From assembly GCF_024345995.1 (NCBI RefSeq), contig NZ_JAGQCE010000017.1, positions 1 to 57,816 on the forward strand: a stretch of 57,816 bases of DNA. The letters are read 5' to 3'. This stretch comes from Synechococcus sp. Cruz-7E5. Lineage in GTDB: Bacteria > Cyanobacteriota > Cyanobacteriia > PCC-6307 > Cyanobiaceae. A model generated the notes under the pieces. The model had not been told where the DNA came from. It did not search any database and saw nothing but the letters and a program-made list of their open reading frames with translations. The position numbers were made by a program, and so were the translations under genes. Of this stretch, positions 2,484-35,793 are shown in pieces; the stretch's first letter is position 1, and each line of letters starts with the position of its first letter.

Positions 2484-2600
2484 ATGCGTCGCAGCGAGTT
2501 TCACGCCTTTCTGGCCAGGATATGGACGCGAATCGAGGCGTTGCTGCCTCATAACAAACTGGTGAATGTATACCTCGATCGCATCGAGGCGATCAAGTAG
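2484..2600 (+). pseudogene. Short gene remnant overlapping the integrase 3' end
   Basis: A plus-strand frame reads ALREKRDALLRSLRFGN and then MRRSEFHAFLARIWTR, ending IEAIK and TAG at 2600. The only ATG is at 2484, giving 38 residues, but the frame is already open from about 2431. It looks like the 3' end of a longer gene whose front is gone. It overlaps the convergent recombinase gene by 8 bp. I do not recognise the family. The rest of 2335-2592 shows nothing else. Confidence 0.25.
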
Positions 2601-3846
2601 CAGGCCCTGGGGCCTGGGCCTGACGCTCACCCAGAAGACGGGCCGCCTTGTCGAAGGCGTCATCCACCACCTCATCACCACACCACTTGCTGTAGGCCGC
2701 CAGGTGGGTTTCGACGGTGTGGCCCATCGCGGCCGCCACCACCTTGGGCGGCAGCTCGCAGATCACATGAGCACGGTGCGCATAGCCATGCCGGCAGGAG
2801 TAGAGCACCAGCTTCTCCCCCTCCAGCGCATAGCGATGGCGGAGCTGATCCCAGAGGGGGCGACGGCGAAGGTAGTTCTTGAGGTCCTGCGACCCGAAGC
2901 CGGGCCTCATCGGTGGCATCCGGGTGGAGCTGAACGTCTCCTCCAGCCTCCACTGCTGGGCCCATGCATCGCAGGGAAGAACCCGCAGTGGCCGGGGTCT
3001 GGTGCTGCCGCGGGAAGACACCTTGGCGTAGTTGCACCACAGGCGCCCTTCCCGCAGCTCAAGATGCTGCAGCTCTTCTGGCCTCAGACCAAAACTGGCC
3101 AGCAGCTGGACGGCATAGCGCCAGCGCGTATCGGGAATCGATTCCACCAGCAGGAGAATGTCGTCCACACCAATCGGTGTGGTGACTGATTTGGGCTCCC
3201 GGCGGCGGCCGGTGTAGCTCGAGAGCACCAGCGGGGGCGCCCACTCCTGCGGCAGCCGCTCATTGTCCACAGCCCAGCGCAGCAAGGCGGCTGCCTGCTG
3301 CACCACCACCTGGCGCCCCCGGGAACCGGGCTGATCCTTGAGTCGCTGGGTCAGCAGCTCCAGCAGTTGACGCGGGGTCGAGGGCTTGGTCTTCCCTTTG
3401 GTGGCCTCCACCAACCGCTGCATACGAGCGGCGTAGGTCCTCTCCCAGGTCGTCTGCTTGATCAGACCGCTGCTGATCTTGTGGTCCCGGTATTGCGCGA
3501 CCAAACCCTGCCAGTCCGTGCCCTGAATGGGTTCGACCACGTCCTCTGGCGTGCTGTCGTCTTCCTCTGGAGAGGCCGATCCTGTGGCCAGTGCGATGCA
3601 TTGATCCAGAGGAATCCCACGCGCGAAGGAGGCATGGATCGCCAGCACTGCCGTGTGGATATCCTGCCGAGCAGCCGCTTCCCAGGGCAAGGGGAGCACC
3701 CGCTGGATGCGCTTGCCCCCAGTGACCCGCTCCGAGAGATTGAGCAGGGCACGGCCGCGCATTTCCGCCAGGCTCCAGCCGCTCCTCGAGCCGAGGTCGC
3801 ATTGGAGAGCTGAACGCAGGGCAGCGACCCAGTGCTCACGGGGCAA
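2593..3846 (-). CDS. int: Tyrosine recombinase / phage-type integrase
   Basis: A 417-residue site-specific recombinase of the lambda-integrase family. Catalytic residues in order are Arg about 255 in SFGLRPEEL, Lys about 275 in YAKVSSRG, Arg/His about 352-353 in YSCRHGYAHR, His about 376 in AAAMGHTVE, and the nucleophile Tyr about 385 in LAAYSKW. The N-terminal 200 residues form the usual core-binding region. The start codon at 3846 faces a tRNA-Pro 3' fragment only 160 bp away, the typical layout of an integrase beside its attachment site. It probably excises and integrates the island. All catalytic residues appear present. Confidence 0.88.
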   Translation of the reverse strand: MPREHWVAALRSALQCDLGSRSGWSLAEMRGRALLNLSERVTGGKRIQRVLPLPWEAAARQDIHTAVLAIHASFARGIPLDQCIALATGSASPEEDDSTPEDVVEPIQGTDWQGLVAQYRDHKISSGLIKQTTWERTYAARMQRLVEATKGKTKPSTPRQLLELLTQRLKDQPGSRGRQVVVQQAAALLRWAVDNERLPQEWAPPLVLSSYTGRRREPKSVTTPIGVDDILLLVESIPDTRWRYAVQLLASFGLRPEELQHLELREGRLWCNYAKVSSRGSTRPRPLRVLPCDAWAQQWRLEETFSSTRMPPMRPGFGSQDLKNYLRRRPLWDQLRHRYALEGEKLVLYSCRHGYAHRAHVICELPPKVVAAAMGHTVETHLAAYSKWCGDEVVDDAFDKAARLLGERQAQAPGPAT

Positions 3847-4009
3847 AAGACCCCCCTTGCAAGAGAAAGTGCAAGAGAAACTAGCTCAAGCCGTGGCACA
3901 GCGAGGCAACATGAGGCACCCGGCGGCACCCCTAAACACAGTGAGCACAATGCTTTTCAGCCAAGATCCCAGTCAGCGACAACGACCTCCCAGATCGGTT
4001 CCACAGAGG

Positions 4010-4051
4010 TTTGGGAGCACTAGGTCGCAGGTTCGAATCCTGTCGCCCCGA
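4010..4051 (+). other. Attachment site: 3' half of tRNA-Pro(UGG)
   Basis: The stretch starts in an anticodon loop TTTGGGA (anticodon TGG). It then has a T-arm GCAGGTTCGAATCCTGT and the acceptor strand CGCCCCG plus discriminator A. No matching 5' half (CGGGGCG, D-arm) lies upstream, so it is not a working tRNA gene. Duplication of a tRNA 3' half is what tyrosine recombinases leave when an element integrates in a tRNA gene. The intact tRNA and second att copy are not in the window. Confidence 0.8.
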
Positions 4052-4064
4052 TTCCAGTTATACC

Positions 4065-4096
4065 AAGGGCTCTCGGGGATTCCGGGAGCCCTTTTT
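4065..4096 (+). terminator. Rho-independent terminator after the tRNA-Pro fragment
   Basis: GGGCTC (4067-4072) pairs with GAGCCC (4086-4091), extended by flanking A-T pairs and followed by five T. It lies 16 bp after the tRNA fragment, as a tRNA terminator would. Confidence 0.8.
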
Positions 4097-4184
4097 CTTG
4101 CCCGTTTCGGGCCGGCTGAGCGCAAATTGAGCGCAAACACGCCAAACGACGCCAAAAAGGGGGGCGCGCAGGTTGCCTCAGCGT

Positions 4185-4253
4185 GCGCGGACAGCGCAAG
4201 GGCTACGCAAGCGCTCGGCCCTGGCGCTGTCCGCGCGGTCACTTCGGCGTCCT
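4185..4253 (+). repeat. Hairpin leader, copy 1 (upstream of ardC)
   Basis: A 13-bp perfect stem (4185-4197 with 4224-4236) encloses an inner AGGGC/GCCCT stem (4199-4203 with 4218-4222). Then come GTCAC at 4238 and GGCGTCCT at 4246-4253, with the ardC ATG at 4268. The architecture recurs at 18208, 19019, 22673 and 24319. It could be a promoter/operator or an RNA structure in the leader; no Shine-Dalgarno is seen before the ATG. Confidence 0.65.
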
Positions 4254-4267
4254 TTGCGCCCTCTGCC

Positions 4268-5227
4268 ATGGCCGCATCCAAGTCCCGTCGCAAGTTTTCA
4301 GGCCCCTCACCCGAGGAAGCGATGGTGCGCGATCTCATCGAGCTCCTCGAGGCCGGCACCACGCCCTGGCGTAAGCCCTGGGATTGCCATGGCGGCGGCG
4401 TCCACATCAATCTGCTCACCGGCCGCGCCTATCGAGGCGGCAATCCAATCCTCCTGGAGCTGGGGATGGCCATGCGCGGCTCGTCGCTGCCCTTCTGGTG
4501 CGGCTTCGCCGAGGCCAGGAAGCTCGGCATCTTCCCGGTCAAGGGCAGCAAGTCGGTCCGCATCCTCAGGCCCCAGCTGCACTCCCGCGAGGATGAGCAG
4601 GGCGGCGAAAAGGTGCTCCACAGCTGGGCCAGCTATCGCCCGGTGCCGGTGTTCAATGTCTCCGATCTGCAGGGCGAGGCCCTGGCCGGGCTGATCGCCG
4701 CCCGGATGCCAGAGGCCACGGAGCGGCCGGCGATCGAGCCAATCAGCCAGGCCGAGCAGATCCTGGGAGCCTGGTCGGTCCCGGCCGGCTGGGGCGGTGA
4801 GCGGGCCTTCTATGCCCCAGCCATCGATCGGATCCAGCTGCCGGGGCGCGAGAGCTTCCACGGCGCTGCGGCGCTCTATGCCACCTGGGGCCACGAGGCC
4901 ATCCACTCCACCGGCCACGAATCCCGCCTCAAGCGCGATCTCTCCGGCGCCTTCGGATCCAGGTCCTATGCCCGGGAGGAGCTGATCGCGGAGCTTGGCA
5001 GCGTGCTGCTGGGGCAGCGGCTGCAGATCGGCTGTGAGCTCATGAGCCACGCGGCCTATCTGGAGAGCTGGATCTCCGTCCTGCGCGAGTCGCCCAAGGT
5101 GCTGCTGCAGGTCGTAAGCGAGGCCCGCCAAGCCGTAGATCTGATCTGCCCAGAGCCCGAGGCACCAGAGGCCCTGGCAACTGCAGAGCTAGCCGCCGAG
5201 GCCGAGCCCGCCGCGCTCAGCGCCTGA
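4268..5227 (+). CDS. ardC: ArdC-like antirestriction protein (ssDNA-binding domain plus zincin metallopeptidase)
   Basis: A 319-residue intracellular protein. Residues about 15-130 form the ArdC N-terminal ssDNA-binding domain (LIELLEAGTTPWRKPW, INLLTGRAYRGGNPILL, KGSKSVRILRP). Residues about 165-300 form the zincin-like peptidase. HEAIH at 209-213 gives two zinc ligands and the active Glu; EELIAELGS near 237-245 supplies the third ligand. Proteins of this kind on mobile elements protect incoming DNA from restriction. The ATG at 4268 is chosen because the N-terminus matches the second copy at 24420 exactly (MAAS). It sits behind hairpin leader copy 1 and 217 bp after the att fragment. Confidence 0.88.
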   Translation: MAASKSRRKFSGPSPEEAMVRDLIELLEAGTTPWRKPWDCHGGGVHINLLTGRAYRGGNPILLELGMAMRGSSLPFWCGFAEARKLGIFPVKGSKSVRILRPQLHSREDEQGGEKVLHSWASYRPVPVFNVSDLQGEALAGLIAARMPEATERPAIEPISQAEQILGAWSVPAGWGGERAFYAPAIDRIQLPGRESFHGAAALYATWGHEAIHSTGHESRLKRDLSGAFGSRSYAREELIAELGSVLLGQRLQIGCELMSHAAYLESWISVLRESPKVLLQVVSEARQAVDLICPEPEAPEALATAELAAEAEPAALSA

Positions 5228-5266
5228 GGCTCAGCCGGGCCAGCCGGGAGCCCTCAATCCCGGCGC

Positions 5267-5527
5267 TCACGCATGGGCGGCCGGCGGTGCCCAGACCACC
5301 ACCGTGCCCTCCGGCCACTGCGGATGGCAGTCCTCATAAGGCCGCGGCGCCACCAGGGGCCTTCCGTCGGGGTAGAGGTCGCTTCGCTCATCCGACGGCG
5401 GCGCTGCCTGCAGGGCCAGGCCGTGCGCCGCCAGGGACGCCCAGAACAGGACATTCCAGTTCGGCCCGCCTTGGCCTGCGGCCTGGAGCGCCGCGTCGAG
5501 CGCCACTTTGTACTGCTCGGCCTTCAT
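5267..5527 (-). CDS. Hypothetical protein at the end of the phage module
   Basis: An 86-residue soluble protein beginning MKAEQYKVALDAALQAAGQG. The frame extends to a TTG at 5554, but the ATG at 5527 is preferred. It contains a Trp/Pro-rich end (PEGTVVVWAPPAAHA). It is the last gene in the minus-strand phage-module direction, separated by 84 bp from the next gene upstream. I do not recognise a family. It lies tail-to-tail with ardC. Confidence 0.45.
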   Translation of the reverse strand: MKAEQYKVALDAALQAAGQGGPNWNVLFWASLAAHGLALQAAPPSDERSDLYPDGRPLVAPRPYEDCHPQWPEGTVVVWAPPAAHA

Positions 5528-5611
5528 GGTCAGAGCAACCCCAGCCGATTCCAACCACGAGCGGAGCGTGGCGCGATCGAAGAAGCCGCCGCCACCCAGC
5601 AGCGGTCGGCC

Positions 5612-5812
5612 CTAGATCGACACGTGGATTCCATCGTCGGCCGTGGTGTACGACAGCTCGGCGCCGAAGTCCTTCAGCAGCTCATGCAGCTGCCTCAGGA
5701 ACTCACGCTCCTGCAGCTGGGGCATACGACCAGCTGCGGCCTCCCTCGCCTCACTCAGCAGCACCAGCTGGTGCTCCCGCAGCTCAGCCGGGATCAGCTC
5801 TGGCGTTTCCAT
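5612..5812 (-). CDS. Hypothetical small protein, phage module
   Basis: A 66-residue, charged, probably helical protein (METPELIPAELREHQLVLLS onwards). The ATG at 5812 overlaps the stop of the upstream gene in a TGATG arrangement, indicating translational coupling. Glu and Leu are abundant and the end is DDGIHVSI. No family recognised. Position in the operon suggests a phage accessory or assembly-related role, which is inference only. Confidence 0.55.
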   Translation of the reverse strand: METPELIPAELREHQLVLLSEAREAAAGRMPQLQEREFLRQLHELLKDFGAELSYTTADDGIHVSI

Positions 5813-6123
5813 CAGATCGCCTCCTCGAGCACGTCCCAGCCAGTCTCCCAATACAAGCGGGCGATCTGATTCGCCATCCCAGGCTGCACATCGAACAGGC
5901 GGTAATCAGGCCACTGCCAATCCGGCTTCTTGTCCACCTCCACCTCGTAGCGACGTTCGCAGCGCAGCCGGATCAGATCGATCAGGTGCTCCGGGTCGTT
6001 GCCCGCCTCCTCGACCAGGTGGGCCAGCACATCGTCCAGCGAGTCGTCCTCCCGGATCACATATTCCACCGACCCAGCGAGATACATCTCGCCCTCGATC
6101 AGCTTGAGCAAAGGCTCGCTCAT
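5812..6123 (-). CDS. Hypothetical acidic protein, phage module
   Basis: A 103-residue protein starting MSEPLLKLIEGEMYLAGSVE. It is acidic and Trp-containing, with a central DDSLDDVLAHLVEEAG segment. The ATG at 6123 overlaps the previous stop by the ATGA pattern, so the start is well supported. No domain recognised. It is the next-to-last coupled gene in the structural operon and could be a tail-associated chaperone or regulator; the sequence does not decide. Confidence 0.6.
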   Translation of the reverse strand: MSEPLLKLIEGEMYLAGSVEYVIREDDSLDDVLAHLVEEAGNDPEHLIDLIRLRCERRYEVEVDKKPDWQWPDYRLFDVQPGMANQIARLYWETGWDVLEEAI

Positions 6124-7325
6124 GCCGTCCCTCTTGGCCACAGCACACCCGTCGTCGGCCGCTGGCTGCCGCCGCCTGTGCCCTGCTGCAGCGAGTAGAT
6201 CGGATGCTGCGCCACTCCTGGCCCACCCATCGCAACCGAGCTCCAATCCATCAGGAAATCAGGCCCGGCATCAGGCCCCATCAGCACCGCGCCACGCGGC
6301 ACCTCCGGGCCGAAATACAGCCGGTCAGGGAACGTCTGCCAGCTGCTCAGCGACCCGATCGTGTTCCACCCGGCCATCGCCGCCGTGCTCGGCGGCACCA
6401 GGATCCAGCAGTCCATGCCGCCGCTGCTCATGGCTGCACCCAGCTGGTAGAAGACGCCCGGCCCGCCGGGGTTTGTCACCCGGCTCAGCCTTCGCGGGTC
6501 CGTGATCTGGTTGCTGCCGAACCAGAACAGCGACGGCAGGCTCACCCGCTCCTGCTTCGTGCGGTACTCAAAGAGCTGGCCAGGGCCATTCCCGCCAGGG
6601 ATCAGGCCCAGACCAGTCGTCAGCAGTTGCTCCAGCCCTGATGGCACATTCGGCCAGGATGGCGCCGCCACCATCACGTTATTGCTCCAGGTGTAGAAGT
6701 TGCGGCTCTCGAACATTCCAGCCAGCGCCTGCGACCGCAGTAGCGCCACACTCCAGCCGCTACTTGCAGGACTGCGGAACAGAATGAAGGTATGGTTCTG
6801 CGCGTAGGTGTCGCCACTTGTCGTCGCGATGTTGTATGCGAAGAACTCTTTACCGCCCGGCGTCGTGTCCATCATCACGATCAACCGCCCATCGGCGCTG
6901 AACGCCGGGGTGCCGGTCGGCCCGTAATACGACATGCCGGAACTGAGGCTCGCCACCGTCGTACTGAAGGTGCCGTAACCACCATTCAGCCCATCATCCG
7001 TCCAGCTGCTGGCAAGACCCAGCGCGAAGTTTGCTGACGTTGACGTTGCGCTCGATCCCTGGCTCTTGCTCAGGTTGTAGTACCTCAGCACCATCGGATT
7101 GACCGGATGGCCCAGCCGCAGCACATACCCGAAGAACGTCGTTGTGCTCGCAGCCGTGTGGTCCTTCAGCTGCGTCAGCTGAATGCCACTGTTGCCGGCG
7201 TTCGCATTGACAGCCAGCACGAACGCCGCAATGGCCTCACTGAGCCGCAGGCCCACCGATCCAGGCGCCTTGCTGAGCCAGTCAATCGCAGGCGTCCAGT
7301 CCGCCGTTGAAATCGTCAGAGTCAT
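6120..7325 (-). CDS. Phage structural protein, probable tail/fibre component
   Basis: A 401-residue protein, Ser/Thr/Gly-rich with many aromatic residues, beginning MTLTISTADWTPAIDWLSKA. It lacks membrane segments, and the composition (beta-rich, few charges) suits a receptor-binding or baseplate protein. Starts at 7325 by ATGA overlap with the gene upstream; in-frame codons further out exist but would overlap more. A segment SSGGMDCWILVPPSTAAMAGW looks like part of a beta-sandwich. Function assigned from operon context only. Confidence 0.6.
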   Translation of the reverse strand: MTLTISTADWTPAIDWLSKAPGSVGLRLSEAIAAFVLAVNANAGNSGIQLTQLKDHTAASTTTFFGYVLRLGHPVNPMVLRYYNLSKSQGSSATSTSANFALGLASSWTDDGLNGGYGTFSTTVASLSSGMSYYGPTGTPAFSADGRLIVMMDTTPGGKEFFAYNIATTSGDTYAQNHTFILFRSPASSGWSVALLRSQALAGMFESRNFYTWSNNVMVAAPSWPNVPSGLEQLLTTGLGLIPGGNGPGQLFEYRTKQERVSLPSLFWFGSNQITDPRRLSRVTNPGGPGVFYQLGAAMSSGGMDCWILVPPSTAAMAGWNTIGSLSSWQTFPDRLYFGPEVPRGAVLMGPDAGPDFLMDWSSVAMGGPGVAQHPIYSLQQGTGGGSQRPTTGVLWPRGTA

Positions 7326-8200
7326 GGCGTCGCCTCCACCAGTCGCAGGGCCAGGCGGGCGCCGCCCATCTGCAGCCAATGCGAGCCATCGGAGCCAATG
7401 AAGTATCCGAACATTCCAGCCGTCCGATTATACAACCCGAAATCAGCAGGTAGCACCACCGGATCAAACCACTGCACCGGCGGCTGCGGATTCGGCGCCA
7501 GAGAGGTAATGCCCGGTGTGATCGGCACCCACTGCACCGGCACCGTGAGCATCAGCGGCAGCGTCGAGGACGCATAATCCAGCCGCAGCGCATTCGACAG
7601 GAACGGCAGCGAGCGGTTCGCACGCCAGCCCACCACACCGATCACCGAGGCGTTATCCGTCAGCGACAGATGCCACTGCCCGGAATAGACGTCCTTGGCA
7701 ATCAGCACCACCACCGCCTGGCGGTTGCTGAAGGTGTGCTGCGAATGCGCGAAGCAGAAGTATTCCTGCCCCGGCTCCAATGAGCTGGCCACCAGGGCGC
7801 CGATCGGCAGCGGCTCCGGCAGCGGTTCGATCAGCGTGTTGGTGGTGCCAATCCCGCCCGTGAGGGCGCCATAGCCGCCCAGCGCCGCGCCTGGCACGTA
7901 CCCGCTCGCCAGGCCGCAGTGCGTGGTGATCGCACCCGTCGTCAGGTTCGCCACCCACTGGCTCATCAGCTCCACCGGCTGCCCGGCGTCGAGCACCGCC
8001 AGCCGGGCCTTGATCACCCAGCCCGTGAAGCCATGCACCTCCCCAGGGGCCTTCACGATGCTCAGCTGCTGCAACGGGTTCTGCGCATTGGCTGCCGCCA
8101 TCCAGGTGCGCAGCAGGGCATCCGCAGCGGCGAAGACCTGCGGCACCACAAACCCGCCGGTGTCACCACGGCGGCTGAGGTCCGTGATCGTGGCCACCAT
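7322..8200 (-). CDS. Phage structural protein of unknown function
   Basis: A 292-residue protein beginning MVATITDLSRRGDTGGFVVP. Beta-rich sequence with hydrophobic patches (VVVLIAKDVYSGQWHLSL) and no transmembrane helix. The C-terminus resembles in style, though not in motif, the neighbouring structural proteins. TGATG overlap at 8200 and ATGA overlap at 7325 show it is translated with both neighbours. It may be part of a tail tip or fibre-attachment complex; I do not recognise a family. Confidence 0.6.
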   Translation of the reverse strand: MVATITDLSRRGDTGGFVVPQVFAAADALLRTWMAAANAQNPLQQLSIVKAPGEVHGFTGWVIKARLAVLDAGQPVELMSQWVANLTTGAITTHCGLASGYVPGAALGGYGALTGGIGTTNTLIEPLPEPLPIGALVASSLEPGQEYFCFAHSQHTFSNRQAVVVLIAKDVYSGQWHLSLTDNASVIGVVGWRANRSLPFLSNALRLDYASSTLPLMLTVPVQWVPITPGITSLAPNPQPPVQWFDPVVLPADFGLYNRTAGMFGYFIGSDGSHWLQMGGARLALRLVEATP

Positions 8201-8640
8201 CAGGCGCCACCCGGCCCAGACGGCACGGTGTCGTATTCCACCAGGGCCAGGATGCCCACCGTGGCCGAGTGGGGCACCGCCAGCTCTGTGCGCACACGCG
8301 CCCAGACACGCTGCTGCACCGGCTGATCGGCGTTGGAATACGTCGAGCCCGGCGCTGGCTCCAGCACCGTTGTGGTCCCGTCGAACATCAGGTCCAGCAG
8401 CACACCAGCCGACAGCGGCGGGTCATCGGTGATGGGCCGCAGCGCATCCGCCGCCCGCGCTGCCAGCGAGGCATAGAACGTCACCCAGGCGGCGATCGAG
8501 CAGCTCACCGAGAGAAACCGTCCATCCACTCCCAGGTTCAGATAGGTCAGATCCAGCGCCGATGGAGCACTCACCATCGCTGTGGTGCGCTCCTCGAGCA
8601 CGCGCCGCGGCGTGTCGATCCGAGGAATCCAACTGGGCAT
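8200..8640 (-). CDS. Hypothetical phage-module protein
   Basis: A 146-residue protein beginning MPSWIPRIDTPRRVLEERTT. It contains a hydrophobic Ala-rich segment (IAAWVTFYASLAARAADAL) that is probably a helix in a soluble fold. The start at 8640 overlaps the fibre gene stop, and its stop overlaps the next ATG. No family recognised. Size and position, between a fibre and other beta-rich proteins, would suit a tail completion or fibre-assembly factor, but that is a guess. Confidence 0.55.
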   Translation of the reverse strand: MPSWIPRIDTPRRVLEERTTAMVSAPSALDLTYLNLGVDGRFLSVSCSIAAWVTFYASLAARAADALRPITDDPPLSAGVLLDLMFDGTTTVLEPAPGSTYSNADQPVQQRVWARVRTELAVPHSATVGILALVEYDTVPSGPGGA

Positions 8641-9914
8641 CAGGGCACGACCGCCACCTTGCGGATGGCCCGCACCTGCTGCTGGAACGTCTTGGAGTTC
8701 GGCTCCGGCGGGCCGTAGAACCAGTCCTGGATCACATGGGTGGTGGCCCCGTCCTGCGTCGAGCTGCCGTAGTTGATGGCCTCGAACGCCTCAGCATTAC
8801 CCGCCTGGAACGCCGTCACCGTGGTCGTGCCAGGGATCGATCCCGAGTAGTTCGCCGTGGTCGGTGGCACCGCATAGGCATTGGCGCCGAATCCAGGCGT
8901 GTTGCCCTCGCTGTTATCAGGCTTGAAGCGCCGGAACAGGATCTCCAGCTCGAACTGCGCCGGGATGTACCAATCGCTGTAGCCACCGATTGGCAGGGCA
9001 CGCGCCCACTGGTTAGCCGGATGGGTTGCATCTTTGGCCGCCTCGGAATTGGCGTAGCCGTCGAACGTGCTGGCCGTGCCGACTGTCGCGGTGTTCGCGG
9101 TCTTGCATGCCTTCAGGTCCTCGCCGCCGGCTTTCGGGGCGATCACCAGGGCGTGTGTGGCCACCCCGTTCGCGCTCTGGGAGATCAGGCCGCCGTAGAA
9201 GCCGCCCTGGAAGGCCGCACCGATGGCAGGCAGGCTGCCCACCGGGATGCCCGTCGGCCCACTGCCCAGCAGGTACACATCCCCCGTCAACGTGTCGAGG
9301 TACATGTCGCCGACGATCGAGCCGGGGATGTTGGTCGGCGGCGGGCCGCTGCCCACGAACCAGCCCGTGCCGCGTGGTCCCTCAGGCCCTGCCGCGCCGG
9401 TCGGGCCAATCGGTCCCTGGATGCCCTCCGGTCCCATTGGTCCCGTGGCGCCAGCCGGTCCCGTGCCGCCCGCAGGCCCTGTGGGGCCAGCAGCGCCAGC
9501 CGGGCCAGCAGGGCCGACCGGGCCGGAGATCGAGCCCGCATCCACCCATTGCGTGGTCTCGGTGTCCCAGACAAAGAGGACGTTGGTGCGATCGGGCGGC
9601 ACCGTCGCCACCACATAGGCGTCGCCGTCGAGCTGACCGCTGCTCGGCAACTGGGCCTGAGTGGCCACATTGCCCTTCAGGTTGATGCCCGTGCCCGCCG
9701 CACCCTGCGGGCCAGTGGGGCCGGTTGGGCCAGCGGGACCCGTCGCACCAGCCGGGCCGGTGCTGCCCGCCGGTCCCTGGGCTCCAACGGCACCGGCTGA
9801 ACCCTGTGGCCCCGCTACTCCCGTTGCACCCGCAGGCCCGCTCGCGCCTGCAGGCCCACCCGGACCCTGCGGGCCTTGGGGGCCGCGAATGTTGCCGGTG
9901 CTGGTCCAGGACAT
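8640..9914 (-). CDS. Collagen-like tail fibre with DUF1566-type C-terminal domain
   Basis: A 424-residue protein. After MSWTSTGNIRG there are Gly-X-Y triplets (about residues 10-75), a spacer naming a payload region (GTGINLKGNVATQ), and a second Gly-X-Y run (about 130-185). The C-terminal 200 residues contain GGYSDWYIPAQFELEILFRR, typical of the DUF1566/Lcl C-terminal domain of surface and fibre proteins. Gly-X-Y repeats form a trimeric collagen-like shaft, and the C-terminal domain probably binds the host surface. ATG 9914 is preferred; the frame runs 27 bp further. A TGGCAATAGG box lies 32-41 bp upstream. Confidence 0.8.
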   Translation of the reverse strand: MSWTSTGNIRGPQGPQGPGGPAGASGPAGATGVAGPQGSAGAVGAQGPAGSTGPAGATGPAGPTGPTGPQGAAGTGINLKGNVATQAQLPSSGQLDGDAYVVATVPPDRTNVLFVWDTETTQWVDAGSISGPVGPAGPAGAAGPTGPAGGTGPAGATGPMGPEGIQGPIGPTGAAGPEGPRGTGWFVGSGPPPTNIPGSIVGDMYLDTLTGDVYLLGSGPTGIPVGSLPAIGAAFQGGFYGGLISQSANGVATHALVIAPKAGGEDLKACKTANTATVGTASTFDGYANSEAAKDATHPANQWARALPIGGYSDWYIPAQFELEILFRRFKPDNSEGNTPGFGANAYAVPPTTANYSGSIPGTTTVTAFQAGNAEAFEAINYGSSTQDGATTHVIQDWFYGPPEPNSKTFQQQVRAIRKVAVVP

Positions 9915-9945
9915 GGGCCGCCGCGTTCTGGGGGGTCTCAAGCAC

Positions 9946-9959
9946 CTATTGCCACTGAT
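9946..9959 (-). promoter_or_regulatory. TGGCAATAGG box upstream of the fibre gene
   Basis: Read on the minus strand this is ATCAGTGGCAATAG followed by GTG. The same string ATCAGTGGCAATAG occurs at 14472-14485 before the capsid gene, and related forms at 12222, 21500 and 23364. Role unknown. Confidence 0.4.
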
Positions 9960-9991
9960 GATTCCGAGACCCCACCAGCCCGGGCCGCTGC

Positions 9992-10291
9992 TCAGTCCTG
10001 CTCAGGGTTGATCGGCACCCAGGCGCTGCCCGTCCAGCGCCGGGTGATGCGCTGGCGCCACTCACCGTTGATCCACACCTTTGCCAGCCGATCCATCCAG
10101 GCGCTGCCCGTCCACACCCGGAAGGCACCGCCAGACAGCGGTGTTGGTGCCGGCAGCGCCGGGCCAAAGAACTCCAGGGTGGCGTTCAGACCGCCAGCCC
10201 CCACGTCCCAGCGCTCAGCACCAGCTCGGTAGGGAGGATCGGCCGAATCGCGGATGTCCCTGGGCACGATCAGCCACCAACCATCCGGCAC
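9992..10291 (-). CDS. Hypothetical Trp-rich phage-module protein
   Basis: A 99-residue protein starting at a GTG (10291) inside the end of the gene upstream (22-bp overlap). Two short repeats, VWTGSAWMDRLAKVWINGEW and RWTGSAWVPINPEQD, share WTGSAW, a pattern common in phage fibre-linked and cell-wall-binding modules (W-G-x-W type). The N-terminus is PDGWWLIVPRD. It lies between an unknown structural gene and the collagen-like fibre. No firm family. Confidence 0.5.
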   Translation of the reverse strand: MPDGWWLIVPRDIRDSADPPYRAGAERWDVGAGGLNATLEFFGPALPAPTPLSGGAFRVWTGSAWMDRLAKVWINGEWRQRITRRWTGSAWVPINPEQD

Positions 10292-11082
10292 ACACCCTTG
10301 GCGTTACCCGTGGTGGTGGTGGTGCAGAGCTGAATCAGGCTCAAGCAGGAGTCGATGTGGAGCTCAGGCAGGGAAAGCGCCGCCCAGTCGAACACCTCCG
10401 CCTTGCTCGCCAGCACCGTGAAGAAGCCAGCCCGATACCGCGTGCAGGTCACACCGAAGTTCCCAGCTGTGCCCGTCGTCGCGGAGAGCGTGACGCTGTT
10501 GACCGCCTTGATTCCCTTCTTGCCCTGCGGCGGCAGTATCTGATAGAGACCCGAGGCGCGACTGGTGGCCGCCAGAGCAATCACCACGTTCTGAGTCGTG
10601 TCGTCGTCACACGTCACGTTCACCGTGGCGTTCACGCCCGTGGAGCCTGTGTCGGTGTACCACTCGAGCCACCACTGGAGCTGGCTGAAATCCACCAGGC
10701 CCAGCCGCTCCAGCGGAATGCCAACCACGTTCAGCGGCAGGTTCGTCGTCTGCGCCGTCGCCACGGTGCCCGAGAGGCCGCCCTGGTGGCAGAGGCGATC
10801 GTGGATCTCCAGCGTCGAGGTCGAAAGGCTCGTCGCCACATCCACCCAGGCAAGGTAATTCGTGCCCGGCGCCGAGAACGGGGCATAACCCAAGGCGCCT
10901 AGCAGGCTGTTGTTGCAGATCTGCTGCGCCACCGGCACCGCACCCTGACCCGGCTGGCCCGTGGCACGCCAGAGCGAATAGAAGCGGCCGGCCACCGCGT
11001 TGGCGATCGAGGCCTTATCGAACAGCACATGGCGCGACTGGCTGAGAGCCGCAATCAGTTGGTCCCGTGTCGTGATTGCCAT
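10270..11082 (-). CDS. Phage structural protein of unknown function
   Basis: A 270-residue protein beginning [20 protein letters not shown]. Mostly beta-rich with a Thr/Val/Ala-rich middle (STGVNATVNVTCDDDTTQN). Three cysteines sit near the C-terminus (DSCLSLIQLCTTTTTGNAKG), unusual for a phage structural protein in the cytosol. The start overlaps the preceding stop in TGATG form. Could be a capsid accessory or neck protein; no family recognised. Confidence 0.6.
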   Translation of the reverse strand: MAITTRDQLIAALSQSRHVLFDKASIANAVAGRFYSLWRATGQPGQGAVPVAQQICNNSLLGALGYAPFSAPGTNYLAWVDVATSLSTSTLEIHDRLCHQGGLSGTVATAQTTNLPLNVVGIPLERLGLVDFSQLQWWLEWYTDTGSTGVNATVNVTCDDDTTQNVVIALAATSRASGLYQILPPQGKKGIKAVNSVTLSATTGTAGNFGVTCTRYRAGFFTVLASKAEVFDWAALSLPELHIDSCLSLIQLCTTTTTGNAKGVCRMVGG

Positions 11083-11420
11083 CAGTTGGTGTCCACCCAG
11101 AGGTCATTGAGCGCAGGGCTCGGCGGTGCCGTGGTCCCCACCGTCAGCCGTGAGGCATTGAGTTTTTGGTTGAGGGCCGCCTGCAGGTCCGCCTGCGTGC
11201 TCAGGGTTCCTGTGATGCCACCCCACACCGAAGGACCCGCAGGTCCCTGTGGACCGGTTGGCCCGGTGCCTCCGGTCGCTCCGGTGGCTCCAGTCGCACC
11301 CGTCGGCCCAGCAGGCCCCTGCGGTCCGGTTGCGCCCGTCGCCCCAGCAGTCCCGGCCGCACCATCCGCGCCGTCCGGTCCCTTGAGATTCAGCCCCGTG
11401 GGGTTCCAGGTCTCAGGCAT
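11082..11420 (-). CDS. Short collagen-like (Gly-X-Y) phage protein
   Basis: A 112-residue protein. [20 protein letters not shown] leads into about 18 Gly-X-Y triplets ([16 protein letters not shown]-type), then a 50-residue tail with [20 protein letters not shown] and [15 protein letters not shown], a motif frequent at fibre ends. It shares design with the fibre at 8640-9914 and may be a second fibre or a trimerisation partner. Translationally coupled to the next gene. Confidence 0.7.
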
Positions 11421-11424
11421 CGGC

Positions 11425-12186
11425 TCAGACCATCAGCTCGTACACCTGCCCGCCGATGCGATCCAGGTACAGATCACCCAGGGCCGGTGGCGGTTGCAGC
11501 AGCTCCGTCACCGGCGGGCCATCGCCCGAATACCAGCGAGTGGCACGGCCGCCCGCCTCGCTGTTCATCGCCGCCAGCGCCGGCTCCCCATCCACCGGGC
11601 TCGGCAGGAAGCCCAGGCCACCGGAGGGGTGCAGCCGCAGTTGCCACTGCTGTGCCACCGAGCCGTTGTAGGCATTGCCCTGCAGGCCAGCACCCGGCAC
11701 CAGGGGCTCGACGCCAATCAGACCGCCCGTGGAGCTGCCAGCAGTCGGCACCGAGTAGGGCCGCACCGGGCAGCCCACTAGGGCCACCTGCAGGCTGGCG
11801 ATCGAAATGCCGATGGTGACGGTGACGGTCAGATCCTCCCGGTTCAGGTACATGTGCCGCGGGCGCGGCACATCACGGGCCAGGGCGTCCCAGCCGATCG
11901 TCTCGGTGCTGCCATCACCCCAGCTCACCGCAATCGGCTGCGGTGCCTTCACCAACGGGTCGATATGAAGCTCGATCGCTGCACTCGTGATCGGCTCATC
12001 CCAGAACCGATCAGCCGGATTCCAGTACAGCTCCAGCTGATCAGCGGGCACAGGCCCCAGCCGGTAGCCCATCCGCAACCAGCGCGGCACCTCATGGGGG
12101 ACCACCCACACCTCGAGGCCCGGGCATCCCATCGGAGGAAGCACGCGCACGCGCTCATCAGGGGCGCTGGGGAGCGGGTAGGGCAT
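11425..12186 (-). CDS. Phage-module protein, possible fibre or attachment protein
   Basis: A 253-residue protein starting [20 protein letters not shown]. It includes [12 protein letters not shown] (a PKD-like or beta-sandwich turn). The C-terminus [19 protein letters not shown] resembles the DMYLDTLTGDVYLL segment in the fibre gene at 8640-9914, a motif seen at the end of fibre shafts. A TGGCAAAGGGAGG box lies about 36 bp upstream. Role assigned from this similarity and operon position. Confidence 0.55.
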
Positions 12187-12251
12187 GGAAGGGCTCTGCC
12201 TCCTCTGGATTGGCGCTACCTCCCTTTGCCAGGAAGCCAGGGTGGGCAGTG

Positions 12252-13067
12252 TCAGCCGAGCAGATCGCCAGGGATCGACAGATCCGGCTCAGGGACGAGG
12301 CCAGGTTCAGCAGCCGCCTGCGGCTGCTCGGGAGGAGCCGTCACCGACTCCTCCCAGAGCCTGGTGGCTTCATCAACCAGCACGGCCTTGGTCTGGCTGC
12401 CATCGAGCAACACGCCGTAGTCCTCCTCGCAGCTCTGAACGATCTGCGTCTTGGTCATCGACGCGAAATCAGGCCCGGCCACCTCAGCATCAAGGCTGGG
12501 GGCAGGCTCCGGTTCCAGGCCGACCGGCTCAGACCCGACAGGTACCGGCCCTGCCGGTTCCGGCACTGCTGGTTTCGGCTCCGCAGTCGCCGGGTGGGTG
12601 CCCTGATCCGGAATGGTTCCGGGCAGGGTCACCGCTCCGCCGGTCAGATCACCCTGCAGGGCCTCTGGCGGAAGCTCTTCAGGAGTCATTTGTGCCTGAC
12701 CCTCATCGATTGACACCGGCGGGTGGACCGTCCAGCCGTTCTCCGCCCAGCGCTCAGCATGGACAGGAAAGACGAACTGATCGTCCTCGCTCGCCTTGGA
12801 GATGCGCAGCATCCCCTCCGGCGGCAGCTCCAGCACAGGATTGGCGGTCGTCAGCTCAACAGGCATGGTCGGATCAGCAGGGGTGAGCGGATCAGTGGGC
12901 TCCTCAGGCGGCCCATTGGGCGCAGGTGCAGTCGGCACCGTGGGATCACTCCCCTCCGTTCCCTCCTGCGGTGGCGCCCATGGCCTGCCGGGCTTGGTCG
13001 GCTTGATCACCGGCTTGGGCGGCGAGCCCGGCACTCCGCCGGGCGCCTTGACCTCAACGTCATCCAT
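12252..13067 (-). CDS. Pro/Glu-rich phage-module protein with HeH/LEM-like segment
   Basis: A 271-residue, strongly acidic, Pro-rich, low-complexity protein. Near residues 205-245 MTKTQIVQSCEEDYGVLLDG followed by SQTKAVLVDEATRLW has the shape of a HeH/SAP-type helix-extension-helix domain, which is common in phage capsid-neighbouring proteins. The remainder is likely disordered. It lies two genes after the capsid protein. A linker, scaffold-related or decoration role is possible. Confidence 0.55.
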   Translation of the reverse strand: MDDVEVKAPGGVPGSPPKPVIKPTKPGRPWAPPQEGTEGSDPTVPTAPAPNGPPEEPTDPLTPADPTMPVELTTANPVLELPPEGMLRISKASEDDQFVFPVHAERWAENGWTVHPPVSIDEGQAQMTPEELPPEALQGDLTGGAVTLPGTIPDQGTHPATAEPKPAVPEPAGPVPVGSEPVGLEPEPAPSLDAEVAGPDFASMTKTQIVQSCEEDYGVLLDGSQTKAVLVDEATRLWEESVTAPPEQPQAAAEPGLVPEPDLSIPGDLLG

Positions 13068-13075
13068 GGCCGCGC

Positions 13076-13498
13076 TCAGTAGGTGAGGCTGACGTGGGCG
13101 CCGTTCGGAGTGGAAGGCGTCAACGTGGCTCGGGCATAGAAGAAGGCCGGCAGCTCCACGTTGGCGGCATCAGCTGGAGCCACCGACAGGCTGCCGCCTG
13201 CGATCGGTGCCTCCACCTGGCCACCAGCGGCGGGGATCGCCACGGTGGCCGCCGTCACCCAGGTGCCGACTGTGCCGTCCTTGAGCAGCGGCGCCAGTTG
13301 CAGCACCACCGTCACCGCCCCGGCAGCACCGGGATGGCTGGCCAGCAGCGTGAAGTCATCCGCCGCATCGAGCGGCGTGGTCAGCCGCACCACCTCCGCG
13401 CTGACGCGCGTGCGCTCAAACGGGTCGGTGGCGTTGTAATTGACCCACCCCACCAGCGTGGTGGCGGCGTCGATCAGCTTGTTGCCCTGGTGGGCCAT
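13076..13498 (-). CDS. Probable head decoration or stabilisation protein
   Basis: A 140-residue beta-rich protein starting MAHQGNKLIDAATTLVGWVN. Gly, Val and Ala dominate (GAAGAVTVVLQLAPLL). It is the first gene after the major capsid gene, 36 bp away, the usual slot for a head decoration or stabilising protein. No family signature is visible, so the function rests on position. Confidence 0.5.
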   Translation of the reverse strand: MAHQGNKLIDAATTLVGWVNYNATDPFERTRVSAEVVRLTTPLDAADDFTLLASHPGAAGAVTVVLQLAPLLKDGTVGTWVTAATVAIPAAGGQVEAPIAGGSLSVAPADAANVELPAFFYARATLTPSTPNGAHVSLTY

Positions 13499-13534
13499 GG
13501 TCTTGTCCTCTCAGAAGTGAATGGGGAGGGTTGA

Positions 13535-14434
13535 TCAGGCCACAGCAGGGCCGACGTTGTAGAGGCGACAGATCGCCTTGTCGTGGCACACCGCAAAACC
13601 CACGTACCAATCGACGCGGGTGCGGAAAACCGGGGCGTCCTGCACTTCGCCGAAGTCCCGCACGGAGATCCCGTAACGGCCCTCGAACGGACCCTGGATG
13701 CCCGTCATCAGCTCATCGCCGAACGCCACGCAGTAGATCGAGGTGGTGTTACCGGCCTCTCCAAAGCCCAGCACCTCATAGCCCTGAGCGTCCTGATCCA
13801 GCACCAGGATCTCGGTGTCCTCGAACCAGTGGCGGCCGTCGATCACCTGATACAGGTCGCCGCCAGCCTCACGGCAGACATGGCTGATCTGGCGCCGGCC
13901 CGCCTTGCTGGTGATGATCACCTTCTCCCCGCCGAGGGCGTTGACCGCATCGACCAGCGCCTCCAGCTTGGTGAGCTTCACGGTGCCGCTGATGTTGTCC
14001 ACGGTCTGCATCTGGCCGGGGATCAGCCGCTTGCTGAGACCGTTGAACGCCCGCGGATCGAAGCTGGCGTCACCGTTGATGATCGCCGCCTCCAGCGTCA
14101 ACCGCATCGAGCGCACCTTCTGCTCCGTCTGGGAAGCACGGGCCTCGGGGCCGTTGAGATCGACGATCGAGCGGTCCACGTCGAGATCACCACCGAACAG
14201 GTGGACGAATTCGCTCTCCTGGGCCACCGCGCCGTAGTCGCGCCGGTAGCCCTCGTTCACGGCCCGAAAGCCGACACGGGGCATCTTCTTCTCCTTGGCG
14301 AACTGCAGAGCCCCACCCGAAAGGTTGCGGAAGGGCAGACGACGAAGCAGCTGACCTTCCACGAAGGTCTTGGACACCGCGAGCCGATCGACTCGGGTTT
14401 CATGCTTCATCGCCTCGATCAACGTGAGGCCCAT
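13535..14434 (-). CDS. Phage major capsid protein (HK97-like fold)
   Basis: A 299-residue protein starting MGLTLIEAMKHETRVDRLAV. Features typical of a subgroup of cyanobacterial and proteobacterial phage capsid proteins are the N-terminal FVEGQLLRRLPFRNLSGGAL and then RAVNEGYRRDYG, DLDVDRSIVDLNG, AAIINGD, FNGLSKRL and a late DWYVGFAVCHDKAICRLYN. ATG 14434 is preceded by GGGAGTG, a fair ribosome site; a GTG lies two codons earlier. It heads the minus-strand structural operon. Neither terminase, portal nor protease genes lie upstream; toxin-antitoxin genes lie there instead. Confidence 0.75.
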   Translation of the reverse strand: MGLTLIEAMKHETRVDRLAVSKTFVEGQLLRRLPFRNLSGGALQFAKEKKMPRVGFRAVNEGYRRDYGAVAQESEFVHLFGGDLDVDRSIVDLNGPEARASQTEQKVRSMRLTLEAAIINGDASFDPRAFNGLSKRLIPGQMQTVDNISGTVKLTKLEALVDAVNALGGEKVIITSKAGRRQISHVCREAGGDLYQVIDGRHWFEDTEILVLDQDAQGYEVLGFGEAGNTTSIYCVAFGDELMTGIQGPFEGRYGISVRDFGEVQDAPVFRTRVDWYVGFAVCHDKAICRLYNVGPAVA

Positions 14435-14471
14435 GGTCACTCCCGGGGCCTGGCCCCAGCAACGTCACCAT

Positions 14472-14485
14472 CTATTGCCACTGAT
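14472..14485 (-). promoter_or_regulatory. TGGCAATAGA box upstream of the capsid gene
   Basis: Reads ATCAGTGGCAATAG on the minus strand, 38 bp before the capsid ATG and identical over 14 bp to the box before the fibre gene. It may mark a shared promoter or operator for the structural genes. Confidence 0.4.
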
Positions 14486-14499
14486 CCTGAAAGGAGCGT

Positions 14500-14955
14500 T
14501 CAGGGCCCGTCGAGCTCGGCCTGCAGGCTCTGCCAGTCCGCCGGCAGGTCACCGCGGCGCACCATCTGCTGGAAGACGGCGTAGCAGTCGTTGCGATCGC
14601 CGTCCTTGCGGGGGAAGCCCAGCCAGAGGATCAGCAACACCTTGCGGCCCTCGGCCTCGAAGACCCGAAAGAAGAGGCGGTAGCGATCGGGCAAACCCAG
14701 CCCCTTGAGCCGTCCATAGCGCCGCAGCGGACCCGTCAGGGCAAAGCGAGCGGCATAGGGATCTGCGGCGATCCGCTCCTTGATCCCCTCCATCACCGCG
14801 GCGAGCAGCTTGACCTGGGGATGTTGCAGGAAGCTCTGCTGGTCGAGTTCCTTCTTGAGACGTTTGACCTCAGCTTTGAGCTGCTCGTACTGGCGCGCGA
14901 ACAGCTGGGGCTGGAAGACGATCTCCCAGCCATGGCGCACCAGGGCCGGGCTCAT
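14500..14955 (-). CDS. yhaV: Type II toxin, YhaV family
   Basis: A 151-residue protein with the family sequence MSPALVRHGWEIVFQPQLFA, RQYEQLKAEVKRLKKEL, FALTGPLRRYGRLKGLGLPD, RYRLFFRVF and CYAVFQQMVRRGDLPADWQ. YhaV toxins are ribosome-dependent RNases of the RelE/ParE-like fold. Length and the conserved Arg-rich RYRLFFR and KDGDRNDCY segments look complete. The ATG at 14955 overlaps the stop of the PrlF antitoxin gene (ATGA), the standard order. It follows the capsid gene promoter region head-on in the same direction. Confidence 0.85.
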   Translation of the reverse strand: MSPALVRHGWEIVFQPQLFARQYEQLKAEVKRLKKELDQQSFLQHPQVKLLAAVMEGIKERIAADPYAARFALTGPLRRYGRLKGLGLPDRYRLFFRVFEAEGRKVLLILWLGFPRKDGDRNDCYAVFQQMVRRGDLPADWQSLQAELDGP

Positions 14956-15308
14956 TCCTGTGCAGGCGCGCCCGCTGTCTCCATCGTGTCCACCGTGACA
15001 CCGGCAAGCAGCTCATCGTCTTCTGCCGCCATGGCCTCGGTGTAGGGCACAGGTCCGGCTTCTGCCGTCAACGCCTCACGGGTGAGCAGATCAAGGAAAA
15101 GGCCCAGCATGAGGCTCTCGTCCTCAGGCTCAACGCCCTGGCGCTCGCTTGGCTCGAAGCGCAGGAGCATGGTGTCGTTGCTCAGCACCTCCACTTGCCC
15201 TGGGGCGCCTGTGAACTGGGGGTGATCGCGGTAGAAAGCGGCAGGAAGCCGCAGACCGGAGGAGTTGCCGATCTGGGCCGGGGTGACGCGGTAGCGGGAA
15301 GAAGCCAT
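14952..15308 (-). CDS. prlF: Type II antitoxin, AbrB/PrlF-like
   Basis: A 118-residue protein. The N-terminal 45 residues (YRVTPAQIGNSSGLRLPAAF) form an AbrB/MazE-type swapped-hairpin DNA-binding domain. The acidic C-terminal half would bind and neutralise the YhaV toxin encoded next, with a 4-bp overlap. The pair is likely autoregulated through the antitoxin. Only about 230 bp, with no other gene, separate its start from the divergent nuclease gene at 15536. Confidence 0.75.
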   Translation of the reverse strand: MASSRYRVTPAQIGNSSGLRLPAAFYRDHPQFTGAPGQVEVLSNDTMLLRFEPSERQGVEPEDESLMLGLFLDLLTREALTAEAGPVPYTEAMAAEDDELLAGVTVDTMETAGAPAQE

Positions 15309-19466: not shown

Positions 19467-20198
19467 ATGGCCAAGCTGATGAGCCCCGATCGCTTCCAGG
19501 ACCGCTGGGAGGCGTTCAAAGGCCAGAAGCAGCAGGTTTCCGGCGTTGAGCAGCTCTACGACGCGATCACGGCAGTCGATGGCAAGGGGCTGATCCTGCG
19601 TGAGGACGCCCCATGGGCGCTGCAGTTCAGCGAAAAGCCAGCCGCAACGCCCGCGCCAAGCAGTGGGCTCGATCCACGGGGCTCCGAGGAAGCCGGGCTG
19701 ATCGGCCCCAGGCAGAAGGCACCGGTCAAACCAGGTGATTCCTACCTCCTCGTCAATGACCGCGACGAGGACATGGAGGCCTATGACCACAGCGGCAAGC
19801 TGCTCTGGAAAGTTCCCTGTCTCGCCCGTGGCCTTGGGGCCGAGAACGAGTGGAGGCGCAAGAGCACCGACACCCCACCCGGCCTCTACAAGCTCGGTGA
19901 GCACTACCCCGACTACGAGCAGAACCCCAATCCGCCCTGCAGCAGCACCGCCCTGTCATTCGGCTGGTTCAGTTTCGACATGGTCGAGCTGGAGAACCAG
20001 GAGGCCAAAGTCGGCCGCGCCGGGGTCATGCTCCACGGCGGCGGATCAGGCTGCGGCTGGCCCGGTGCCTGGGCCGCAAAGCAACACCTGCTGCCGACGC
20101 ACGGCTGCGTCCGGCTCCGCAACATCGACCTGCGCGACAAAGTACTGCCCCTCTACAGGCAGGGCACCGTCTATGTCGGCGTCTTCCAGGAGGCCTGA
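19467..20198 (+). CDS. L,D-transpeptidase (YkuD-like) domain protein, possible lysis enzyme
   Basis: A 243-residue protein, no obvious signal peptide. The last 100 residues carry the YkuD signature: TPPGLYKLGEHYPDY, GVMLHGGGSGCGWPGAW and THGCVRLRNIDLRD, with the catalytic Cys in HGC-R. Such enzymes make or cut peptidoglycan cross-links. The N-terminal 100 residues (MAKLMSPDRFQDRWEAFKGQ) resemble phage endolysin-associated regions. A single-copy GCGTCCT box precedes the ATG by about 12 bp, and TGGCAAAGGG lies about 46 bp upstream. The membrane protein gene 12 bp downstream may be its holin partner. Confidence 0.75.
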   Translation: MAKLMSPDRFQDRWEAFKGQKQQVSGVEQLYDAITAVDGKGLILREDAPWALQFSEKPAATPAPSSGLDPRGSEEAGLIGPRQKAPVKPGDSYLLVNDRDEDMEAYDHSGKLLWKVPCLARGLGAENEWRRKSTDTPPGLYKLGEHYPDYEQNPNPPCSSTALSFGWFSFDMVELENQEAKVGRAGVMLHGGGSGCGWPGAWAAKQHLLPTHGCVRLRNIDLRDKVLPLYRQGTVYVGVFQEA

Positions 20199-26806: not shown

Positions 26807-26925
26807 AGCAGCCCAGAAGCCACGGGCAGCCTAAGAGAAGCGGTTCTGCTCGGCTGGCTTCCCCGGTTCATGCTCACCGCCGGACTCAGTTCCAATGAGA
26901 AGGGCGCCCCGTGTCGGGCGCCCTT

Positions 26926-35792: not shown

Positions 35793-35793
35793 T

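Follow-up and report, generated by a model that had tools for sequence, protein, structure and literature searches.

Introduction

The tycheposons of Prochlorococcus use tRNA sites and a tyrosine recombinase, and carry cargo. A tRNA site, a tyrosine recombinase and cargo have also been described for a tRNA-Phe/Cys integrase element (PMC10187409). Capsid-forming phage-inducible chromosomal islands (cfPICIs) are integrated elements that encode their own major capsid protein (MCP), portal and terminase, taking only the tails from a helper (PMC10690885). The Streptomyces satellites share the same principle (PMC10690885, PMC11389934), and capsid-forming satellites are said to be no larger than their helpers (PMC11389934). 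Here we analyse a stretch of 57,816 bp, the window, which is the whole of contig C9 in the 3.16-Mb, 31-contig genome of Synechococcus sp. Cruz-7E5 and contains an MCP gene followed by collagen-like fibre genes. We consider it probable, if far from certain, that the window holds the capsid-fibre half of one element from a family of large integrative elements in picocyanobacteria, and that these are capsid-forming satellites docking helper tails, cfPICI-like but larger and cargo-bearing.

Related islands may have been seen before. In Synechococcus RS9917, P-SS2-like islands of 42 kb at tRNA-Ser and 65 kb at tRNA-Met were read as relic, degraded prophages, with a P-SS2-like lysozyme reported (Sullivan et al. 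2009, PMC2784084); judged by description, they probably belong to the same family. In Synechococcus SynAce01, PHASTER gave an 8.2-kb replication-defective prophage, phiSynAce1 (PMC6337551); in later work on that lake, prophages as long as 19 kb were interpreted as remnants (PMC9716671). PhiSynAce1 (65.5-73.8 kb) overlaps the large terminase (TerL) gene at 70.0 kb, upstream of the MCP gene at 20.0 kb (genome G089, matched to SynAce01 by its identical coordinates); the MCP-TerL span alone is about 50 kb, whereas the 8.2 kb called cover the packaging region only. The same complete chromosome (G089 C1) has a second MCP gene, at 103.6 kb, without a TerL of its own. Among the titles and abstract openings listed for tycheposons, for cyanobacterial phage satellites and for picocyanobacterial prophages, none described the element family; the original tycheposon paper, which was not in these lists, may already cover related elements.

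By gene content, the elements resemble cfPICIs: own MCP, portal and TerL are present in the family (the window copy has the MCP only) and no tail genes were found. They differ in their size, 49 to more than 115 kb, their large cargo and their sigma factors. The Streptomyces satellite MulchRoom is alike in having TerS, TerL, portal, MCP, scaffold, a head-to-tail adapter and an integrase, with a tail thought to be helper-derived, but it comes from another host phylum and the available description mentions no large cargo. The phages P-SS2 and S-CRES3 have homologous TerL, sigma factor, portal, scaffold and MCP genes in the same relative order; those of S-CBS2 are also homologous, its record being cut elsewhere. 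Unlike the elements, in which none was found, these three phages have a tail operon (major tail protein, tape measure and tip). To tycheposons and the tRNA-Phe/Cys element, the likeness (tRNA sites, tyrosine recombinase, cargo) is one of description only.

Capsid, fibre and packaging genes

An earlier note on this DNA had described a minus-strand MCP operon with two collagen-like open reading frames (ORFs), and PHROG_212, GP7 and Pfam Collagen matches bear this out (Table 1). The window MCP is 37-40% identical to the MCPs of P-SS2, S-CBS2 and S-CRES3. The genes downstream of it are all on the minus strand and mostly abut or overlap. For f1, fold searches gave no match at E<=0.001; its predicted beta-sandwich makes a decoration role possible. 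The fibre module holds pieces related to siphophage proteins (f5, f6 and f7) and others (f12 and f13) related to a gene pair that lies near the tail-tip genes in a Rhodobacter phage. By its profile matches, f7 is related to a portion of larger structural or fibre proteins of phages. The f6 protein, searched singly by tblastn, gave no match, and the AlphaFold model of f5 is poor, with a predicted local distance difference test score (pLDDT) of 37.

The note had found neither terminase, portal nor tape measure in the window, and in this it was right. Hidden Markov models (HMMs) specific to the element family, run on the 833 six-frame stretches (>=40 aa) of the window, gave no TerL, TerS-like, portal, f33, f26 or scaffold match, while the MCP and integrase profiles did match. 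The tape measure profile matched neither the window nor the other regions. Pfam Terminase_6N was tried as a TerL detector and abandoned: it found nothing in the source genome although TerL is present, so the model misses this TerL family.

The suggestion that such islands lack terminase and portal in general finds no support in the homologous elements, which do encode a TerL, a portal and a scaffold. Elements of G004, a single-contig genome, have the portal (Pfam DUF4055; PHROG_145, E 1.6e-18), scaffold (PHROG_206, E 2e-12) and TerL upstream of the MCP, with a TerS-like gene just before TerL. Read along the MCP strand, the upstream order in homologous elements is TerL, sigma factor, portal, two putative connectors (f33 and f26) and scaffold. 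Element TerL shares 34-35% identity with the large terminases of P-SS2, S-CBS2 and S-CRES phages; f33 and f26, which sit after the portal, have weak links to gp75 (E 5e-4, 0.003) and gp77 (2e-4). In one f26 protein (L095 13068-14210, after the portal), PHROGs bearing LysM (transglycosylase, endolysin, baseplate hub) also match weakly, at E 4e-5 to 5e-4.

In the window's own genome, TerL and portal are found on C4 and C30, with the TerS-like gene, f33, f26 and scaffold alongside, giving two TerL/portal/scaffold sets for three MCP loci. The note had named adjacent contigs with the missing genes, in the same prophage, as what would undo its view; these two sets come close to doing so, though neither can be assigned to the window copy.

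Distances were taken from 90 MCP rows (of 112) and 66 TerL rows (of 115); fragments and stop-bearing rows were omitted, as were some long ones, namely one for MCP with 278 residues and several for TerL with 370-490. A listed TerL is on the same contig for 48 of the 90 MCP loci, upstream and on the same strand in 41 of these, 7.9-76.6 kb off, and not so in seven; the other 42 loci have no listed TerL on their contig. By eye, one omitted TerL fragment (G222 C61) would give one extra concordant pair. Of the relatives with a linked TerL, the one nearest to the window MCP, in G090 (94% MCP identity), has it 76.6 kb away. Among 400 genomes of the host family, TerL is found in 56 (E<=1e-20), the MCP in 59 (E<=1e-10) and both in 49 (Fisher p 5e-45). 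Nine single-contig genomes with MCP have 17 MCP and 12 TerL loci, with at least one TerL each, one of them split (hand count, neighbouring TerL pieces merged). In genome G008, a packaging set with TerL (C6:102281) and portal (C6:108182) occurs without this capsid, the MCP search giving nothing there at 1e-10.

Tail genes

The MCP, scaffold, portal, TerL and sigma factor families each match P-SS2, S-CBS2 and S-CRES3. The comparisons below used 18 regions, including four contigs of the window's genome and two IMG/VR loci, and, for the reverse test with profiles built from the phages, these 18 plus seven more (1.36 Mb in all, chromosomal flanks included). In the 25 regions, at E<1e-3, the phage-built HMMs matched 14 times for TerL, portal and scaffold each, 20 times for MCP and 15 times for sigma factor. 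The major tail protein, tape measure, gp86, gp87, gp88, gp92, gp95 and gp98 profiles gave no match there, and of five head-tail profiles only gp77 matched, once, to an f26 protein. Thirty-four IMG/VR contigs with this MCP, with flanks of at most 10 kb per side, contain scaffold (30), portal (24) and TerL (13), and in the same flanks seven tail or head-tail profiles had no matches. Profiles built without P-SS2 recovered all 14 families tested in P-SS2.

The layout is a stronger argument for taillessness than the profile test. The interval between portal and scaffold measures 1.3-5.0 kb in all 13 regions with both genes and contains only f33, f26 and small insertions; in S-CRES3 it is 32 kb and in P-SS2 67 kb. 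The element MCP is followed by f1-f0-f9-f13-f12-f8-f7-f6-f5 or by f1-f0-f52-f51-f50-f49, or by variants or shortened forms of these, the smaller structural type comprising six proteins only (64-349 aa). In none of 20 loci does the post-MCP block, taken on the same strand up to the first opposite gene, contain a protein larger than 514 aa, leaving no candidate for a long tape measure. What is consistently absent from the elements examined is the tail; judged by genes and layout, they look like P-SS2-type siphoviruses minus the tail module.

Distribution and element boundaries

Two further MCP copies in the window's genome, on C4 and C2, are 84% and 73% identical to that of the window and share with it the operon and parts of the plus-strand module located at 18-25 kb of the window. 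In the genus, the MCP is found in five of nine genomes, with up to four matches each; in the wider family, the genomes containing it spread over 14 of 59 genera. Among named genomes, 20 loci were detected, in Synechococcus (1G10, J7-Johnson, SynAce01 and others), Cyanobium, an Aphanothece and metagenome-assembled genomes.

A full member is inserted at a tRNA gene, with a direct repeat of the tRNA 3' end on either side, and carries an integrase, early genes, the TerS-like gene, TerL, sigma factors, portal, f33, f26, scaffold, MCP, the fibre module and tens of kb of cargo. In G090, exact 47-bp repeats of tRNA-Gly(TCC) are 113.4 kb apart and the integrase adjoins the tRNA. Copy b of G004 spans 48.9 kb at tRNA-Gly(CCC), with a 93-bp repeat at 90%; a third partial repeat copy 14 kb beyond suggests a tandem remnant. 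In the window's genome, C30 has a tRNA-Met beside the integrase and C2 a 48-bp, 94% copy of the tRNA-Met 3' end beside the last fibre gene; because of this repeat, the two contigs probably make up a single element, one half each, with a length of at least 115.7 kb. In G105, G182 (two stretches) and G204, no second copy of the one tRNA found per stretch was detected, leaving these ends open. All three elements with repeats at either end (48.9, 113.4 and at least 115.7 kb) carry cargo; phages of the candidate-helper type measure 72 kb (S-CBS2) and 108 kb (P-SS2). Integration at tRNA genes, a tycheposon feature, is seen in the tRNA-Met, tRNA-Gly(TCC) and tRNA-Gly(CCC) repeats and in the tRNA-Pro fragment of the window.

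Conservation of the elements

The ratio of non-synonymous to synonymous substitution rates (dN/dS) is 0.05-0.10 when the window MCP is set against the four nearest of the copies compared; the median over all usable MCP pairs is 0.27. Medians are only moderately low for TerL (0.32), portal (0.43) and scaffold (0.55), with dS near saturation in many pairs. All 14 MCP matches in the genus are without internal stops, one being a fragment. Broken copies do exist: four of the 112 MCP matches have internal stops, others are fragments, and the TerL of G079 is split. With Mwe-JY26 as root, the elements are monophyletic, with support of 0.66 for MCP, 0.83 for TerL and 1.00 for portal. Single broken copies notwithstanding, the pattern in these sequences is that of a maintained lineage rather than of repeated decay.

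Integrase side, plus-strand module and cargo of the window

The features of the window are collected in Table 1; gene calling missed low-GC genes, and certain starts and small genes are approximate. The earlier note had the recombinase and the tRNA-Pro fragment flanking the operon, but both are on one side of it. Only two sites in the genome have the 29-bp tRNA-Pro core (<=2 mismatches): the complete tRNA gene of C4 and the window's 3' fragment. Since this putative attachment (att) core separates the integrase from the capsid operon, the integrase is probably the end of a neighbouring element. We infer that it ends one element, perhaps that of C4, and that the capsid operon opens the next; a circular or tandem form would give the same picture of integrase, fragment and operon. 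A similar integrase-fragment-fibre junction is present on two contigs of one relative. The window integrase as driver of the window capsid element was considered and dropped: in G090 and G004 b, the two relatives whose tRNA repeats, exact or nearly so, lie on a single contig, the early-gene end is where the integrase is located. Beside the integrase, at 161-2334 (+), is a gene pair without PADLOC match; one gene is Ntn-hydrolase-like by eye, without Pfam match, and the second combines a DACNV sensor domain with a weak match to DAC.

Table 1. Features of the window (coordinates in bp; regions, the set of 18 described in the text)
Feature	Coordinates	Strand	Evidence
Tyrosine integrase	2593..3846	-	PHROG_1 E 7.6e-16; no Pfam match
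tRNA-Pro(TGG) 3' fragment, putative att core	4010..4053	+	4010-4051 = 42/42 bp of intact tRNA-Pro, C4:26034-26108
ArdC-like anti-restriction protein	4322..5227	+	Pfam ArdcN, MPTase-PolyVal; PHROG_7245 E 1e-62; start possibly upstream at 4007
f5, last conserved operon gene	6120..7325	-	Family HMM: S-CRES3 gp72, 6.5e-16
f6	7322..8200	-	HMM: S-CRES3 gp72, 2e-8
f7	8200..8640	-	HMM: S-CRES3 gp94, S-CBS2 gp031, P-SS2 gp087, 1e-23 to 6e-20
f8, collagen-like fibre	8640..9941	-	Gly-X-Y repeats; Pfam Collagen 5.8e-15
f12	9992..10291	-	Related to Rhodobacter phage RcZahn gp41, HMM 6e-14
f13	10270..11082	-	About 50% identical to Rhodobacter phage gp40, gene soon after tail-tip genes
Short collagen-like protein	11082..11420	-	Gly-X-Y repeats; Pfam Collagen 9.9e-8
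f9, operon protein	11425..12186	-	Family in 11/18 regions
f0, proline-rich, directly after f1	12252..13067	-	14/18 regions
f1, beta-sandwich protein after MCP	13076..13498	-	14/18 regions; model mean pLDDT 69
Major capsid protein	13535..14434	-	PHROG_212 major head protein E 3.5e-54; Pfam GP7 4e-14
YhaV toxin (14500-14955) and upstream ORF (14952-15308)	14500..15308	-	Pfam Toxin_YhaV 2e-41; upstream ORF without Pfam match
YkuD L,D-transpeptidase domain protein, plus-strand module	19467..20198	+	Pfam 4.3e-5; 8/18 regions
f14, small conserved protein adjoining YkuD	20295..20579	+	9/18 regions
Sigma-70-like factor	21694..22344	+	Pfam Sigma70_r4 3e-10; PHROG_351 1.8e-13
Second ArdC-like gene, apparently split into two ORFs	24420..25121	+	Family f23; blastn to ArdC regions of C4, C2
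Cargo zone	25714..54253		Pfam: SNase-family gene, P-type ATPase, insertion sequence (IS), redox enzyme, glycosyltransferase, cation ATPase
Repeat at contig end, taken as IS end	57658..57816	-	Same 159 bp (99%, inverted) opens the contig

The YhaV pair, of which the upstream ORF is probably the antitoxin, is an insertion in the element, between the MCP and the plus-strand module. The same two families are found close to a truncated MCP in G006 C29. The conserved unit extends right to about 25.1 kb, and element-type cargo to about 54 kb. Metal transporters and a transposase are part of this cargo, as are a glycosyltransferase and a redox enzyme; a nucleotidyltransferase-like pair and SRAP-like and MerR-like genes were recognised by eye only, and families f82 and f83 lie at the right end. 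Families f29, f77, f78, f80 and f81 of the window cargo recur between the MCP and scaffold of G090, and f54, f79, f82 and f83 recur on G006 C28. PADLOC gave no match in the seven window proteins scanned. Contig C4 carries DISARM (DrmA 1.6e-250, DrmMI E 0, DrmB 8e-65); these genes, at L006 4247-15729, are cargo of a capsid-bearing element. In the gap between sigma factor and portal of the C4 element, low-GC ORFs resemble, by eye, an ATPase and a partner.

Both termini of the contig are copies of one repeat and overlap joining of contig ends gave no join; the assembly therefore broke at the repeat on either side, and the flanks of the window are open.

Discussion

The analysis documents, at the level of sequence, the gene content of the elements, their tRNA repeats, their conservation and a taillessness judged from layout. 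What stands of the earlier note is a satellite-like island at a tRNA site with structural genes, probably in need of a helper. Upon induction or helper infection, the element would excise and replicate, build and fill its own capsid, and dock it to a tail from an infecting P-SS2/S-CBS2-type siphophage, which would probably provide lysis too; the fibre-related proteins of the element may alter adsorption. As the element head genes are nearest to that group, siphophages of the P-SS2/S-CBS2/S-CRES type would be the likeliest helpers. The window copy would adjoin, in tandem, another member at the integrase end of the latter, and the packaging set of the window copy would be either past the contig-breaking repeat or lost. 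If lost, the sibling elements on C4 and C30/C2 could supply packaging in trans.

Several points weigh against this interpretation. Helper, excision and particle are predictions from sequence. The window copy has no linked or assignable packaging set, the conserved TerS-like gene is without any family match, and the monophyly of the MCP is weakly supported. In the leave-one-out control, two matches fell on genes other than those assigned, showing that the gp86 and gp80 profiles each held a wrong P-SS2 row. When run on the tailed Mwe-JY26, whose MCP shares 36-41% identity, the profiles recovered the tape measure as well as TerL, portal, scaffold and MCP, but sigma factor, major tail protein, gp86, gp87, gp88 and all four of the head-tail families tried escaped them; at such divergence, the sequence test therefore cannot decide the matter by itself. 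Mwe-JY26 also has its portal adjoining the scaffold, with the tail genes after the MCP, so portal-scaffold spacing proves nothing by itself and the short post-MCP block is also needed. The elements may contain very divergent short-tail genes. A tail-gene search was negative in all 400 family genomes, but carries little weight because the set had no positive control, and the early genes tested matched none of P-SS2, S-CBS2 and S-CRES3.

As to the window copy itself, there is a minority chance that it is a capsid-only derivative needing TerL, portal and scaffold of its siblings in trans, a satellite of a satellite; this reading is near to that of the earlier note and would be compatible with a family of tail-borrowing satellites. 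The excess of MCP over TerL loci, three to two in the window's genome and 17 to 12 in the nine single-contig genomes, is what such a derivative would give. However, the contig breaks off within a repeat at 57.8 kb, TerL in G090 is 76.6 kb away from an MCP 94% identical, and decay of the copy is an equal reading.

We think it improbable, though not negligibly so, that the elements form a family of autonomous temperate phages whose tail, short (podovirus-like) or unrecognised, would consist of f0, f5-f9 and f13 or of f49-f52 proteins together with f26 and f33. They have their own integrase, early, packaging and fibre genes; divergent tails can escape profiles, and Mwe-JY26 combines a tail with adjacent portal and scaffold. 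On the other hand, their head genes are, among the phages searched, nearest to siphophages, and the smaller structural type has just six proteins after the MCP. No clear lysin was found among the window proteins scanned, lysis genes not having been searched systematically.

It is more doubtful still that the elements are degenerate P-SS2-like prophages that lost their tails by random deletion, as proposed for the RS9917 islands (PMC2784084). Besides that published reading, the IS-rich loci, the broken genes (split TerL of G079, stops in 4/112 MCP matches, many fragments) and the MCP genes without TerL in complete genomes agree with decay. The same tailless order recurs, however, in the 13 portal-scaffold regions and 20 MCP loci examined, and such a conserved tailless layout argues against a random remnant; so do the low dN/dS between near MCP copies and the monophyly, and among the matches listed no phage MCP exceeds about 40% identity. 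The deletion remnant that the earlier note kept as its alternative is therefore unlikely for the family, given open frames in 14/14, low dN/dS and constant gene order, while the window copy itself may lack a packaging set. A domesticated gene-transfer agent packaging host DNA, which would fit the many family genomes with elements and the low MCP dN/dS, is hardly credible in view of the tRNA repeats, integrases, early genes, multiple copies and cargo, which point to a selfish element.

A bolder version of the satellite interpretation, which we put forward only tentatively, is a two-tier system: tailless satellites grown to cargo carriers of more than 100 kb (DISARM, metal transport), with own capsids and borrowed siphophage tails, would spawn capsid-only copies packaged by their siblings, and prophage finders would have reported the system as short defective prophages. 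If the satellite interpretation is true, picocyanobacteria would have a dedicated vehicle for defence and metal genes, and islands dismissed as relic prophages would be explained. Own-capsid satellites could then exceed 100 kb, contrary to the published view that they are not larger than their helpers (PMC11389934). The interpretation also names a testable helper group, the P-SS2/S-CBS2/S-CRES siphophages.

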